Source: a virus. Taken from it: 23,253 bases of DNA. The notes under the pieces were generated by a model. That model saw nothing but the letters and a program-made list of their open reading frames with translations. It made no database searches and had not been told where the DNA came from. This document shows positions 16,697-21,270 of the stretch, piece after piece (within the stretch, counting starts at the first letter, position 1; each line of letters opens with the position of its first letter). A program made the translations under genes and the position numbers. The stretch covers positions 1-23,253 of the IMG/VR virus record IMGVR_UViG_3300023301_000109; one strand, given 5' to 3'.

Positions 16697-17983
16697 CTAT
16701 ATATTTATTGTTAATCTCTCTTGAAAATCTTGACCACTCATGACCGTGTCGTGACAATCCATGTCACACCCTTTCACGACTAAGTGGATGTATAAATTCT
16801 TCTTCAATGCGTTCGACCTCAACACTCGACCTGTGGACTGTTCGTAGTCCACATGTCTAAATGATTTACTTGCGTATATTACGCAAGGGAATGTTGGCAA
16901 CTCGTACCCTGAAGAAATTGCACATTGAGCGATTATGATATGTGGGTGTGGACTTTCATTTACTTTGTGGATAAAGCTCCGGTCTTTTGTAGCTCCAGTT
17001 AAAGTTGAAACATTGTATCCTTCTTTCTTCAGAGCTTTTTCAATCTCTTGAATTTGAGCTGTGTAGTTGGCAAAAATTAGTAGCTTCGGGAATTCTTGAG
17101 CTCTTTCTAGGATGTAGGGTATCTTATTATTCTTGAAAATAATTGTCTCATCACTCATGGTGTCTGTTTTATTTTCTCCTTCCACTATTTTCTTTCCGTA
17201 TAGCACTCCATTCTCTATTGTTCGAAGCCTAGCACGCCTAACAAGGGGGTCCGGTTCTGAAAACGACATATCAGTCACTGCGAGCTTTTGCTCTGCTGTA
17301 AGGTCAATTTCAATGACTTTATGGGTCTGTTCCGGAACATCGAAGAAGTCATTCAGACTACCTGTATACCCAAGTCTTTTAATCAAAGTAGCTAATTCTT
17401 GTTTTATCTCTTCAGTCTTCTTTGGTAGCCAAATTCTTCGAACTCCTCCTATTCGAACTTCAGTGTAATACTTGTTTCGGAACTGGTGGAAATCCCAATT
17501 ATTTCCTAGCAAAACTCCAATTGCCCAAACACTCATAGGTTTCGGAGCGGGAGTTGCGGATAGTAAGTACAATCTTTTCGGAGGATGTTTTTCTAAGAAT
17601 TTCTTTGTAGCATCGAATATCTGTGAGGTCTTTGGAATCTGTATTTTATTTCTCTGAACATACGCAGGCATTACTCCAAGATTGTTGTGAACCTCATCAA
17701 TAATAACTGTGTCAAAGTGAGGTAAATCATCCCAAATCTTTCTCAAGTCTTCTTTACTGATTACCATTACACCTTTATTAGTTTCCCACTTTTTATTTTC
17801 TCGTTCCCAAGTCTTATCATCTCTTTGTTGCTTCGGACAAATAACTAAAGTATCTCCTTCAGCTAAGACTAAAGCGGTCCGAGTCTTTGAAGCACCAGTC
17901 CCAAGAAATAGCCCGCACTTTAGTGGGTCTGCATCTATGATTTTCTTTTGATGGTCGTAGAGTGGTAACATATTAGAATTCAT
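16697..17983 (-). CDS. SF2 (SNF2/DEAD-like) DNA helicase
   Basis: The protein has 428 residues. Motif I is at residues 28-34 (GTGASKT, with Ser where a Gly normally precedes the Lys), motif II is D96-E-V-H99, motif III is S142-A-T144, and motif VI is at 382-390 (QSTGRVLRS). The second RecA-like lobe carries LLIFANYTAQ and GYNVSTLTGA. Such ATP-driven helicases are common in phage replication modules and act on dsDNA or branched structures. Its start overlaps the primase stop by 11 bp, so it belongs to the SSB-primase operon. Its stop abuts promoter A. The altered Walker A may still bind ATP since Lys-Thr is kept. Confidence 0.85.
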   Translation of the reverse strand: MNSNMLPLYDHQKKIIDADPLKCGLFLGTGASKTRTALVLAEGDTLVICPKQQRDDKTWERENKKWETNKGVMVISKEDLRKIWDDLPHFDTVIIDEVHNNLGVMPAYVQRNKIQIPKTSQIFDATKKFLEKHPPKRLYLLSATPAPKPMSVWAIGVLLGNNWDFHQFRNKYYTEVRIGGVRRIWLPKKTEEIKQELATLIKRLGYTGSLNDFFDVPEQTHKVIEIDLTAEQKLAVTDMSFSEPDPLVRRARLRTIENGVLYGKKIVEGENKTDTMSDETIIFKNNKIPYILERAQEFPKLLIFANYTAQIQEIEKALKKEGYNVSTLTGATKDRSFIHKVNESPHPHIIIAQCAISSGYELPTFPCVIYASKSFRHVDYEQSTGRVLRSNALKKNLYIHLVVKGCDMDCHDTVMSGQDFQERLTINI

Positions 17984-20339
17984 TAAAGCTATCTTTTTTA
18001 ATCCAATGGGGACTGAACTTCATCCCAGTATATTCAGCTTCTCCTCCACCATACTGTCGAGTGGAGTAAGAGAATCTATCGTCTTTTGCTCCGTAAGCTT
18101 GTACCTCTTTTTGAAAAGTTATGTTAGCTTTTATTTTTCTTCCACCTTCTGACACACTCCACTTTTTATATTCAGAATATAATTCTGGAGCTTCAATTTT
18201 TTCACCTTCTTCTAGAACGATACACTCACTCAAGAATCCTTCAACTGAGGAATTCTCTGCTCGATAATCGTCTAGCATTTTTGTCTGTTCTTTTGTGACA
18301 ATGAAGTTTTCGTTTTGAGCTAAATCATCAAAACCGTCTAACATCCAGTTTAGAATTCCCGAAATCTCTCCGGCAAGAAGTCCAACACTTGACCGCAATT
18401 TCATATTAGGATTTTTTCTATAATTATTTAAGAACTGCACTGCACAAATTCTTCGCTCTGTTGCTGTTGATACATCATCAACTCGTGGCAGTAGGTTTAC
18501 AGAGAACACAAACTTCGCTTGAGGTCTGAAAGTAAATTGTGGCTTGTATTTAATATCAATAGTTACAGGCTCTCCAGAAATTAGTTTTTTCAACTTATTA
18601 CTTTGGTAGTAGTTTCCGGAAACTTCTTCAATTATATTCAATCGCTTTCCAATAAGTCCGTGCATACCAAACGTGCTGTAAAGACTTTCAAGGTCAATGT
18701 GAGAGGTAGCATCTGGTCCAATAACCATTGATATCGTATCTATGAAGGTCGATTTCCCGTTTCCTCCGTCTCCTACCATGAACAAAGCTCGGTCATAAAG
18801 CATCGAAGAGGATAGAATGTACCCACAGAATTGCTTTATCAACCTAGTTTTATCAATCATTTCATCTCCAGACATCCAACTTGCTACACAATCTTCCCAT
18901 ACTGGACATTCCGCTTTAGGGTCGTAAATAACAGGGTACTGAACCAAAGATACAAAATTAGGATTGTGGGGCATCAGCTCTCGAGTCGCGATGTTTAAAA
19001 TTCCATTCTTCACATTCACTAAAAACCCTCCGTCTTTAGAAATTTTCAGTTCTGGTATTATTGATAAAAGACACGCAACTTTGTCCGATACATTCTTTTT
19101 TGTCCTATATCCCCAAAGCATATCTTCATACAATCCATTCAAAACCATGTCGGACATCTCTTGGTCAGACACCATTTTATAAACTCCGTTGTCGTATCGG
19201 AACACGATTCCAATCTCATTCTTTTTCAAGTACGGATTCAATGCCAGTAATTCTCGTTCGTAATTTGAGTATCGGACTTTGTCTTGTTCTCTTCTGTCCT
19301 TTAGAACGCCGGTGTAAGCTTGTTGGATTAATTGACTTTCTTCAGCACTCATATTGTGAGCAATCACTTCGTGCTTATAAGAATAAGTGTAGTTCCCTCC
19401 GAAAGCACTGTTTATAGTATTAACAATTTCTTGAGCTCCACCTCTTTCAGATTCAATCCCATGCCACCCTACTTTTTCAATATGCTGTAAAGCCTTCTCT
19501 TTTTTCCAACCTGCCTGTCTCATTAGTGAGGCTGTAACCATTAAGGCGTGATTTCTCATTCCCTGTTGAGGCAAGGTATCGGGATGTGCAGAGATTAGTT
19601 TCTGAAAACTTTCTCGGTCTTCAATTGGAAACACTTCATTTACTTTATTAAAGAAACTCTGTTTTTCCGCTTGTGACATTTTTTTAGCTTTGTCACCATT
19701 TAAGCTTGCAATGTCGTTGAAAGATAATGCAGAGTCTTTTGTAGGAAATGCACTTTCAATCGCATCCATTGTGTATGTGTTTGCGGTCTCTTTATGTAAT
19801 CCTTTAATCTTAAACACACCTTCAGTTCCAATCTTCCACTGGTCATCAGTCTTTTTCCAGTAGTAAGTATCCGGTACTCGTAGAATTCTAGTAAGGTCTT
19901 TTACCACAGGGTCCGCTTTTAGTTCTGTTACGATATTCTGTTCCAACTGTTCCCACCTCTTCACTTCACTACTCCATTCTAGTTCTCCTAGTCCTTCTTT
20001 ATAAATGGGTTCATCAAGCACCCAATAAATGTGGTATCCGTTCTTAGTCTCTAAAATAAATGTTGGTGCGAGTTTCTCCTTTATTCTTTCAATCTCTTCT
20101 AAATCTTTTCTTCCGTCTATATCAACGAAGAAAGCATTCAAAGAGCTACAATTTTCTTTTTGTGCGTTTGGTGCATTTTTAAATCCATTGACTGTGAAGT
20201 AACTCTCGTATCCACTTAAATTAAGGTCATCTCTTCTCTCTGTGCTTGCTACTGGCAGTCTACCTGCTCCTGTTTGGTCTATGTACCGGAAAGCATGGTC
20301 CGGAAAGTGTGTTAGGAATTCTTTATTTTTTGTTGCCAT
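17973..20339 (-). CDS. Bifunctional DNA primase (AEP) - SF3/D5-like helicase
   Basis: The 788-residue form begins at MATKNKEF. An archaeo-eukaryotic primase centre is seen in AFFVDIDGRKD (D73, D75), with the later histidine motif ETKNGYHIYWVLDEP (H103). A D5-type region follows, then an SF3 helicase with Walker A GDGGNGKST (residues 523-531), IIEEVSG (Walker B) and an arginine-containing TATERRICAVQF. It makes primers and unwinds DNA at the phage origin. The frame is also open to ATG 20516, which would add 59 basic residues. I prefer 20339 because the known domain begins there and a strong hairpin lies in the extension. Its stop overlaps the helicase start. It is preceded by a ~280-bp structured gap. 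Confidence 0.9.
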   Translation of the reverse strand: MATKNKEFLTHFPDHAFRYIDQTGAGRLPVASTERRDDLNLSGYESYFTVNGFKNAPNAQKENCSSLNAFFVDIDGRKDLEEIERIKEKLAPTFILETKNGYHIYWVLDEPIYKEGLGELEWSSEVKRWEQLEQNIVTELKADPVVKDLTRILRVPDTYYWKKTDDQWKIGTEGVFKIKGLHKETANTYTMDAIESAFPTKDSALSFNDIASLNGDKAKKMSQAEKQSFFNKVNEVFPIEDRESFQKLISAHPDTLPQQGMRNHALMVTASLMRQAGWKKEKALQHIEKVGWHGIESERGGAQEIVNTINSAFGGNYTYSYKHEVIAHNMSAEESQLIQQAYTGVLKDRREQDKVRYSNYERELLALNPYLKKNEIGIVFRYDNGVYKMVSDQEMSDMVLNGLYEDMLWGYRTKKNVSDKVACLLSIIPELKISKDGGFLVNVKNGILNIATRELMPHNPNFVSLVQYPVIYDPKAECPVWEDCVASWMSGDEMIDKTRLIKQFCGYILSSSMLYDRALFMVGDGGNGKSTFIDTISMVIGPDATSHIDLESLYSTFGMHGLIGKRLNIIEEVSGNYYQSNKLKKLISGEPVTIDIKYKPQFTFRPQAKFVFSVNLLPRVDDVSTATERRICAVQFLNNYRKNPNMKLRSSVGLLAGEISGILNWMLDGFDDLAQNENFIVTKEQTKMLDDYRAENSSVEGFLSECIVLEEGEKIEAPELYSEYKKWSVSEGGRKIKANITFQKEVQAYGAKDDRFSYSTRQYGGGEAEYTGMKFSPHWIKKDSFNEF

Positions 20340-20356
20340 ACATTTTTTTGTTAAAG

Positions 20357-20435
20357 CAAAGGTAAAAAGAAAACAGCCAATGTTTTTGTGGAGAGGGAAT
20401 GTATGTAACCCCTCGTAGAACATTGACTGTTTTCT
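20357..20435 (-). terminator. Terminator- or attenuator-like hairpin before the primase gene
   Basis: AGAAAACAG-C-CAATGTT (20368-20384, + strand) pairs with AACATTG-A-CTGTTTTCT (20419-20435), 16 pairs with one C/A mismatch. The 34-base loop contains a second stem, GAGGG/CCCTC (20393-20397 with 20410-20414). On the - strand the stem is followed by a T-rich run (TCTTTTTACC), the form of an intrinsic terminator. The primase ATG lies ~28 bases beyond. As no gene ends just upstream, an attenuator or RNA switch in the SSB-primase message is the likely role. If the longer primase were translated, this sequence would be coding. Confidence 0.55.
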
Positions 20436-20522
20436 GTCTATCTTTACTATTTTTTTGTTTTGAAATTTCTTTATACATACATTTTTTCTCTTCGATGGGC
20501 TAATGGGGAAAGTCATATTTTG

Positions 20523-20613
20523 TAGCGTGACCTATTGCAATATCCTTTTAGGTAATGACCTACACACGCTATCCATTTCCCCCATCAACCCACCGCGAAG
20601 GGTGGGGGTGATG
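20523..20613 (-). promoter_or_regulatory. Multi-hairpin intergenic element between SSB-like gene and primase
   Basis: TAGCGTG (20523-20529) pairs with CACGCTA (20565-20571), enclosing TAGGT-aatg-ACCTA (20549-20562), a TATTGCAATA palindrome (20533-20542) and a direct repeat TGACCTA (20528 and 20556). TAGGT can pair with either ACCTA copy, so alternative folds are possible. Next to it CATCA-a-CCCACC-GCGAAG-GGTGGG-gg-TGATG (20583-20613) makes a strong GC-rich hairpin without a T-run. Such density of dyads beside a primase suggests an origin or an RNA regulator; the sequence alone does not decide. Confidence 0.5.
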
Positions 20614-20622
20614 TTCTTCTAA

Positions 20623-21270
20623 CTAAAACGGAACGTCATCCGGATTAATTTCGTCAGCTGGATATTCCATAGGTTCAACTTTTTGATTGTTGATACTATC
20701 AAAATCGACATCAGCTCTGCTCTTTGAAGTTCCAGATAATTTATGTTTGATATCTTTTTCCACCATAGCTTCTAGGAAAATCATTCTCTTTGTATCATCC
20801 CATATCTTTTCTCCTTTGACTGTCAATTGCTCCATGTCCGGCATACCTTTAGGTTCAGCCATTGTGTAAGCGTGTTTGACAGCTACTCCGTTTTGATTAA
20901 TAAACAGTGAGCTTTTATTTTTCCCGTCTACTTCTTTAACACTTGGTGAAACTTTCATCTCTTGTGTCAAATCAATGTTCGGTAGCATTTTAAGAAACGC
21001 TGTTGAAAAACTATTGCTATAAGATAATTGAAGAATGTAAACATCTTTTTCATCTTGGAAACTAAAGTTCCATGTTTTTCCGTACTCTCCTTCTTTAATT
21101 TTTATGTCAATTAGCTTTCCTGTAAAACTGTCATGAAAAATCTCATGAACAGTTTTGCCTAGTTTATTTATTCGTGTGACTGCTCCTTCAGTTCCTTCAT
21201 TTACTCTTTGGCAAAACTTACCTCCTAAAATTGTAATGTAATTACCGTCGTCTTTGTTTTCAAATCCCAT
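20623..21270 (-). CDS. Single-stranded DNA-binding protein, phage type
   Basis: The 215-residue protein is counted from MGFENKDD. The body is beta-rich (YITILGGKFCQRV, GKTWNFSFQDEKDVYILQLS) as in an OB fold, and the middle (AFLKMLPNIDL) and KGMPDMEQLTVKG are features I recall from phage SSB-like proteins. The tail is acidic and ends DEINPDDVPF, the classic SSB tip that docks replication partners. An upstream ATG at 21324 is rejected because ATG 21270 follows ATAAATAAATAT, the same leader as the holin gene. It is the first gene after promoter B and precedes the primase, as expected for a replication operon. The C-terminal motif is the strongest support. Confidence 0.7.
   Translation of the reverse strand: MGFENKDDGNYITILGGKFCQRVNEGTEGAVTRINKLGKTVHEIFHDSFTGKLIDIKIKEGEYGKTWNFSFQDEKDVYILQLSYSNSFSTAFLKMLPNIDLTQEMKVSPSVKEVDGKNKSSLFINQNGVAVKHAYTMAEPKGMPDMEQLTVKGEKIWDDTKRMIFLEAMVEKDIKHKLSGTSKSRADVDFDSINNQKVEPMEYPADEINPDDVPF

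Follow-up and report, generated by a model that had tools for sequence, protein, structure and literature searches.

A conserved leader RNA upstream of a phage primase-helicase gene, with a hairpin loop complementary to start regions and a putative role in translational control

What does a densely structured interval directly upstream of a primase-helicase gene do in an uncultured phage? The window analysed here is a 23,253-nt stretch of viral DNA (IMG/VR record IMGVR_UViG_3300023301_000109), in which both genes flanking the interval lie on the minus strand, the coding sequence on one side ending at 20623 and the ATG of the primase lying at 20339. An earlier note, made from the letters alone, had proposed an origin, an attenuator or an RNA switch at this place. 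The flanking genes are as follows.

17973-20339, minus strand: primase-helicase, D5_N / DUF5906 (Pfam DUF5906 and D5_N; PHROG DNA primase), the presumed regulated gene
20623-21270, minus strand: gene of 215 aa, 5′ of the interval, SSB-like by its C-terminal tip

The 215-aa gene gave no match in the Pfam search and belongs to a PHROG of unknown function; its product ends in ...DDVPF, which we take to mark it as SSB-like. Upstream of the window's start codons the sequence is A/T-rich, with no evident Shine-Dalgarno motif (22 sites judged by eye, at least one of them misplaced).

The dense structure that the earlier note claimed for the interval is borne out by folding, the minus strand reaching −86.2 kcal/mol vs. 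−57.5 kcal/mol for shuffled sequences (z −6.15), with none of 200 shuffles as good. The interval divides in two, namely a hairpin with its 5′ flank near the primase (z −6.45 on the minus strand) and a GC-rich/multibranch part near the SSB-like gene.

20323-20483, minus strand: conserved leader RNA of the primase gene, on the evidence of hairpin covariation, loop complementarity and an open leader ORF
20355-20448, minus strand: long imperfect hairpin with 34 pairs in the window, from the fold and from covariation over 17 loci
20493-20613, minus strand: GC-rich/multibranch structured stretch with two competing folds, found only in the window and outside the conserved element

The stretch 20485-20622 has a z of −3.49 on the minus strand and −1.76 on the plus strand, and it contains the GC-rich hairpin seen earlier (20583-20613), which competes for the same bases with long arms at 20493-20511/20577-20595. 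The direct repeat TGACCTA is present at 20528 and 20556, but at 7 nt it is short, and it was not found in any relative. A search for relatives of this part with a 17-mer of the multibranch element found none, returning three matches in unrelated sequence, and relatives with a long interval carry other content there, such as a tRNA in L037. The idea of a riboregulator had been built on TAGGT pairing with either of two ACCTA copies; that pairing was found only in the window, whereas the idea itself gains support from pairing between the hairpin loop and start regions, set out below.

Several genes were seen between the SSB-like gene and the element in other loci. The tRNA gene of L037 lies at L037:5737-5810 (Rfam 48.9 bits; ARAGORN 4-nt anticodon), and L018 has tRNA-like arms at the matching position that were called by no tool. 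A class I methyltransferase-like gene lies there in L005 (L005:4485-5072, Pfam) and L039 (L039:1-435), and the sequence suggests one in L007, L013, L014, L022, L040 and L261 too.

From two scans came 39 viral contigs whose primase is mostly 57-73% alike, and nearly all of them have a hairpin upstream of that gene. Dropped from these were L032, which starts inside the primase, and the copies L017 and L036 (of L016), L019 (of L018) and L026 (of L025). Later scans added two close relatives, L261, with an element of the type lacking a leader ORF, and L241, without the element. The element is thus present in 33 of 35 non-redundant records, the window included (32 of the first set plus L261), and absent in L029 and L241. 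The pairing and open-frame tests below cover 32 loci, and the fold, strand and shuffled-flank tests cover 34, which also include L021 and L038, near-copies of L018. Farther away, 39 distant primases (about 29-38% alike) were found, and no such leader was seen at the nine inspected, for which only fold energy and the sequence upstream of the ORF start were considered. No similar DNA was found in named phages, and a search of genome contigs gave distant D5 primases only, which were left unused.

Across the loci the hairpin has 28-44 pairs over about 70-116 nt and is found immediately 5′ of the primase gene or, where another gene is inserted, of that one; in the window the long hairpin reported earlier is indeed present, with arms at 20355-20384/20419-20448. 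The earlier note had suggested a check for covariation across relatives, and this is strong, the structure being conserved. In 17 aligned hairpins (MAFFT on hand-cut hairpins, with the alignment's own consensus as the structure), 18 of the 21 consensus pairs show changes on both sides, the covariation score is 0.642 vs. 0.285 for shuffled alignments, and all five measures lie above every one of 500 shuffles. Sliding the partner by 1-3 columns lowers the paired cells from 91.3% to 38-50%, a comparison that favours the real pairing because the structure is the consensus of an alignment of cut-out hairpins. Of the two strands, it is the sense strand that gives the better fold in 32 of 34 loci, and its G-U pairs number 135 vs. 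42 on the antisense strand, a comparison biased by the choice of the hairpins on the sense strand; this asymmetry and the G-U pairs suggest a structure formed by RNA. In our judgement it is close to certain that the element is real.

Several of the hairpins had their limits trimmed by hand, and L018 and L035 were placed by hand. A covariance model, R1, was built on the same 17 of 34 loci as the covariation test. In 16 of 33 whole records it has a single match site, which lies upstream of the primase, and it often matches both strands there because the element is an inverted repeat. Of the 17 loci outside the model it recovers L010 (E 3e-4) and L011 (E 4e-5), neither of which was used to build it, and the remaining 15 hairpins, which are divergent, escape it with E allowed up to 1. 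It has no match in L103-L105, three named phages with distant primases. The loop-motif pattern GGTTNGTTACATTNCC occurs in at least 120 stretches; R1 run on 80 of them (L106-L185) matches L168 only, which is the contig of L004, and among the 120 stretches listed L168 alone encodes a primase relative. At the Rfam gathering score the window has no match, and a permissive search gave only sub-threshold hits, the best being mir-6 with 27.3 of 58 bits. A second long hairpin of different sequence was observed between the element and the primase start at L009:303-397 and L025:5891-5983.

A stable inverted repeat at this place might act as DNA, either as a replication origin or as a recognition hairpin for the primase, and its position beside the primase gene, the length of the repeat and its single copy per genome are in keeping with such a role. 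However, the cumulative GC skew turns near 13.75 kb, with gene direction, and not at 20.4 kb, and only short two-copy repeats were found, with no iteron array; the origin proposed in the earlier note gained no support. The better folding of the sense strand and its excess of G-U pairs also speak against a DNA element, which would further leave the start-codon complementarity and the leader ORF described below unexplained, and we regard this reading as highly improbable. The stable stem directly before an ATG would also fit transcriptional termination or attenuation upstream of the primase, as had been proposed too. However, the minus strand showed no terminator-like site at the stem, the T residues taken for a T-run after the hairpin are part of its 3′ arm and paired, and L007, L027, L028 and L035 lack a long T-run there, so that a terminator is scarcely credible.

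The loop of the hairpin is complementary to sequence around start codons, as listed here for the window.

20398-20407, minus strand: PKb, the loop strand of the hairpin (anti-start sequence), from complement tests
20474-20483, minus strand: PKa, the 5′ strand, a 10-nt exact complement of the loop that contains the start codon of the leader ORF, from complement tests
20337-20344, minus strand: PKc, an 8-nt complement of the loop overlapping the primase start codon, from complement tests and significant over loci

PKa is the only copy of the loop's 10-nt complement on the window's minus strand; the 8-nt core of that complement has two copies there, in PKa and in PKc. In the 34-locus set, the 18-nt loop centre has a mean exact complement of 7.97 nt within the 70 nt 5′ of the hairpin, vs. 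5.0 in shuffled flanks. When loops and 5′ strands were permuted between 32 loci, a locus's own complement averaged 8.03 nt vs. 5.41 nt, the top of 5000 permutations being 6.41 nt; same-sense matches and the region −150..−60, the controls of this test, gave no signal. The complement between the loop and the 3′ flank is weaker yet significant over these 32 loci (5.56 vs. 4.95 nt permuted, top permutation 5.50). In most loci the 5′ strand that pairs with the loop holds or adjoins the ATG of a small ORF. Pairing over the primase start (PKc) is seen in the window and in L003, L004, L005, L006, L007, L014, L018, L022, L023, L028, L039 and L040, and, farther away and by eye, in L035, giving 14 of 32 loci with PKc and 18 without.

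The paired sequences themselves differ from locus to locus, with about 15 different loop/start pairing sequences within one phage group, in which the loop and the start strand change together. The core is AATGTATGTA in the window and elsewhere includes AATGTAAC, AATGCAAC, AATGTAGAA, AATGCTAA, CGATCAAA, CTACTAAA, CTTCCAC, CTTCTAC, CTTCGACAA, ATACTAC, CCATCAC, ATAACCCGCAAA, TCGCGAAA and TGCTACA. PKc varies jointly with the loop as well, in L039/L040 (AAATGCTA) and in L018 (ATACTAC). Duplex fits give a second pairing stretch past a small internal loop, for example in L008, L031, L033, L018, L024, L009 and L015. The linker between PKa and the stem is just 2-7 nt in L009, L006, L027, L033, L030 and others, and since the linker is this short, the full stem and the loop pairing are estimated hardly to coexist in cis at such loci; the stem and the pairing of the loop with PKa may therefore be alternatives there.

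The start codon within PKa opens a reading frame that runs through the hairpin.

20323-20478, minus strand: leader ORF of 51 codons plus stop, running through the hairpin and ending 17 nt inside the primase gene, from open-frame and stop-position tests

Another frame of the window, 20340-20516, lies in frame ahead of the primase and is open. In 11 of 11 relatives examined this extension is closed 2-87 nt upstream of the start of the primase match, and the start at 20516 was rejected as that of a primase N-terminal extension, the ORF not being a conserved primase N-terminus because of these closures.

With the rule that any ATG 12-36 nt 5′ of the hairpin may open a frame, provided that it stays open beyond the loop, the leader ORF extends through the loop in 25 of 32 loci vs. 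7.1 expected from shuffles; for these ATGs read in the +1 and +2 frames, the counts of open loci are 7 and 5. Its stop lies at most 20 nt from the start of the next gene in 16 of 23 loci vs. 6.6 expected, the other 7 stopping elsewhere. This count omits L010 and L016, in which the leader ORF and the gene that follows are fused; it uses hand-set next-gene starts for L002, L015, L023, L027, L034 and L037; and it scores as misses L031, for which the primase start was kept despite a pyrimidine-dimer glycosylase gene coming first, and L030, for which the match start served as the next-gene start. The P values of both tests overstate the case because the loci are related. Stop and next start overlap as ATGA in L003, L023, L027 and L040 and as TGATG in L024. 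The 7 of 32 loci without a leader ORF form one clade in the primase tree (98/97), and all 7 have PKc. In five ORF-less loci (L005, L006, L014, L022 and L261) the paired 5′ strand was seen to read ATG-TAG, a start followed by an immediate stop.

The earlier note had looked to codon-constrained protein sequence as a sign that the interval is coding, and here the outcome is split: the leader ORF has been maintained as an open frame, yet its peptide shows no conservation, with frame-shifting indels in most of 17 pairs compared and 76/89/103 substitutions at codon positions 1/2/3. Because the frame stays open while the peptide is not conserved, it seems to be ribosome passage that is kept and not the product. 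If the ORF instead encoded a fast-evolving functional small protein, with the hairpin merely tuning its expression, the open frames in 25 loci and the similar peptides of close pairs such as L034/L037 and L008/L031 would find an explanation. However, the indels, the substitution pattern and the want of a shared peptide do not fit this reading, and the ORF is lost in a whole clade and fused to different proteins in L010 and L016, which makes a functional peptide very improbable.

A gene lies between the element and the primase in L002, L010, L015, L016 and L031, the inserted ORFs belonging to the Endonuclease VII family in L002 and L016 (with its copies L017 and L036) and encoding the pyrimidine-dimer glycosylase in L031. 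The ORF at L010:5029-5532 (no family assigned) and the Endonuclease VII ORF at L016:5361-6005 start at the leader's start codon, with the hairpin within their first codons, so that masking at these two loci would act on the inserted protein.

Taken from sequence comparison, the reading that we consider rather likely is that the element is a cis-acting leader RNA that would control translation of the primase-helicase through a coupled leader ORF carrying its own anti-start loop. Against it speak the lack of the element in L029 and L241, the loci without a leader ORF or without PKc, the leader ORFs that stop elsewhere, the short linkers and the genes inserted ahead of the primase. Without a ribosome on the leader ORF, the hairpin would stand and its loop could cover the start region or regions, and with the starts covered initiation would be low in this genome, whose genes show no evident Shine-Dalgarno motif. 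Should a ribosome get to the leader start first, probably while the RNA is nascent and the loop is yet to be made, it would melt the hairpin, remove the anti-start loop and terminate at the primase start, where it could reinitiate. In the clade without a leader ORF, the primase start would be the loop's only target. The SSB-like protein, an antisense RNA and the growth state are candidate triggers, and both the sign of the control and its trigger are our inference. Since the ORF contains its own inhibitor, a leader under translation would stay translated and a silent one would stay silent, as in a latch. A stronger form of this proposal, which we hold possible but short of probable, is a self-latching translational switch, in which the start is masked by a loop inside the same ORF, ribosomes destroy their own repressor, passage and not the peptide matters, and a bistable leader decides on primase-helicase synthesis in a phage lacking Shine-Dalgarno motifs.

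Control of replication genes by a leader ORF and a pseudoknot is known mostly from plasmids. The phage leader is closest to the IncL/M replicon, which it resembles in parts without being a member, and a similar plasmid leader is that of IncB/IncI repY-repZ. According to passages of PMC8125031, the leader peptide of the IncL/M replicon is coupled to repA, a pseudoknot enables repA translation, and an antisense RNA blocks it. The repB-repA arrangement (pMU604, pCTX-M3), as these passages present it, is like the phage leader in that a small leader ORF is translationally coupled to a replication gene and the loop of a hairpin engages in a pseudoknot (PMC8125031). In contrast, the phage leader regulates a D5_N/DUF5906 primase-helicase and not a member of a plasmid initiator family, the best conserved partner of its loop is the leader ORF's own start, and its leader peptide is not conserved. 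The pairing could nevertheless be an activating one of the repB/repA kind, in which leader translation opens the RNA and the loop pairs near the primase start to enable its translation, possibly set by an antisense RNA. The coupling of the leader ORF to a replication gene next to whose start the loop can pair fits such a pseudoknot, as does the plasmid precedent in the cited passages (PMC8125031); however, the loop's pairing with the leader's own start is better conserved than that near the primase start, and PKc is limited to 14 of the 32 loci, overlapping the very start codon there. We consider activation unlikely.

A protein might act on the leader in its stead, the SSB-like protein or another phage protein binding it and blocking translation in the manner of T4 gp32. 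The leader adjoins the SSB-like gene, and passages of PMC535899 report that T4 gp32 acts through a pseudoknot together with unstructured repeats and that the SSB of M13 represses another essential message. A protein operator would be compatible with the leader switch, as its trigger; taken by itself, it leaves unexplained both the free joint change of loop and start strand and the open leader ORF, and appears distinctly unlikely. The T4 gene 32 operator is alike in that it lies at a phage replication gene, with a pseudoknot near the start, and the homing endonuclease gene segG overlaps that pseudoknot, in parallel with the Endonuclease VII ORF over the element in L016 (PMC535899, in part). It differs in being the binding site of an SSB in the SSB's own leader, and the passages of PMC535899 concerned describe no leader ORF running through it.

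For the favoured reading, a leader whose loop would mask starts until a ribosome passes, two further systems offer likenesses. In the aapA3 and timP type I toxin mRNAs, alternative pairings mask or open the start and are thought to be important on the nascent RNA (passages of PMC6733600); start masking in timP involves a pseudoknot (PMC11228461, in part), and start masking on nascent RNA is described for aapA3 and, with the opposite sign, for MS2 (PMC6733600, in part). These mRNAs have a single toxin ORF and an antisense antitoxin, whereas the phage leader ORF hands over to a replication gene. The stop of the leader overlapping the next start in L003, L023, L024, L027 and L040 resembles termination-reinitiation gene pairs, of which those with ATGA/TGATG-type overlaps were strictly coupled in 13 of 14 tested cases (PMC6728339, in part). 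In contrast to such pairs, the upstream ORF of the phages contains an anti-start hairpin, and its product is not conserved.

A description of the element was found neither in print, as far as the open-licence literature goes, nor in Rfam 15, and the analysis yields a covariance model for an RNA family unmatched there. Little is known of the timing of replication enzyme production in uncultured phages, and conservation alone suggests here that selection keeps ribosomes passing through an ORF whose sequence is not conserved. The leader also offers a testable case of start-codon masking in a genome that has no evident Shine-Dalgarno motifs and in which control should depend above all on how accessible the start is.
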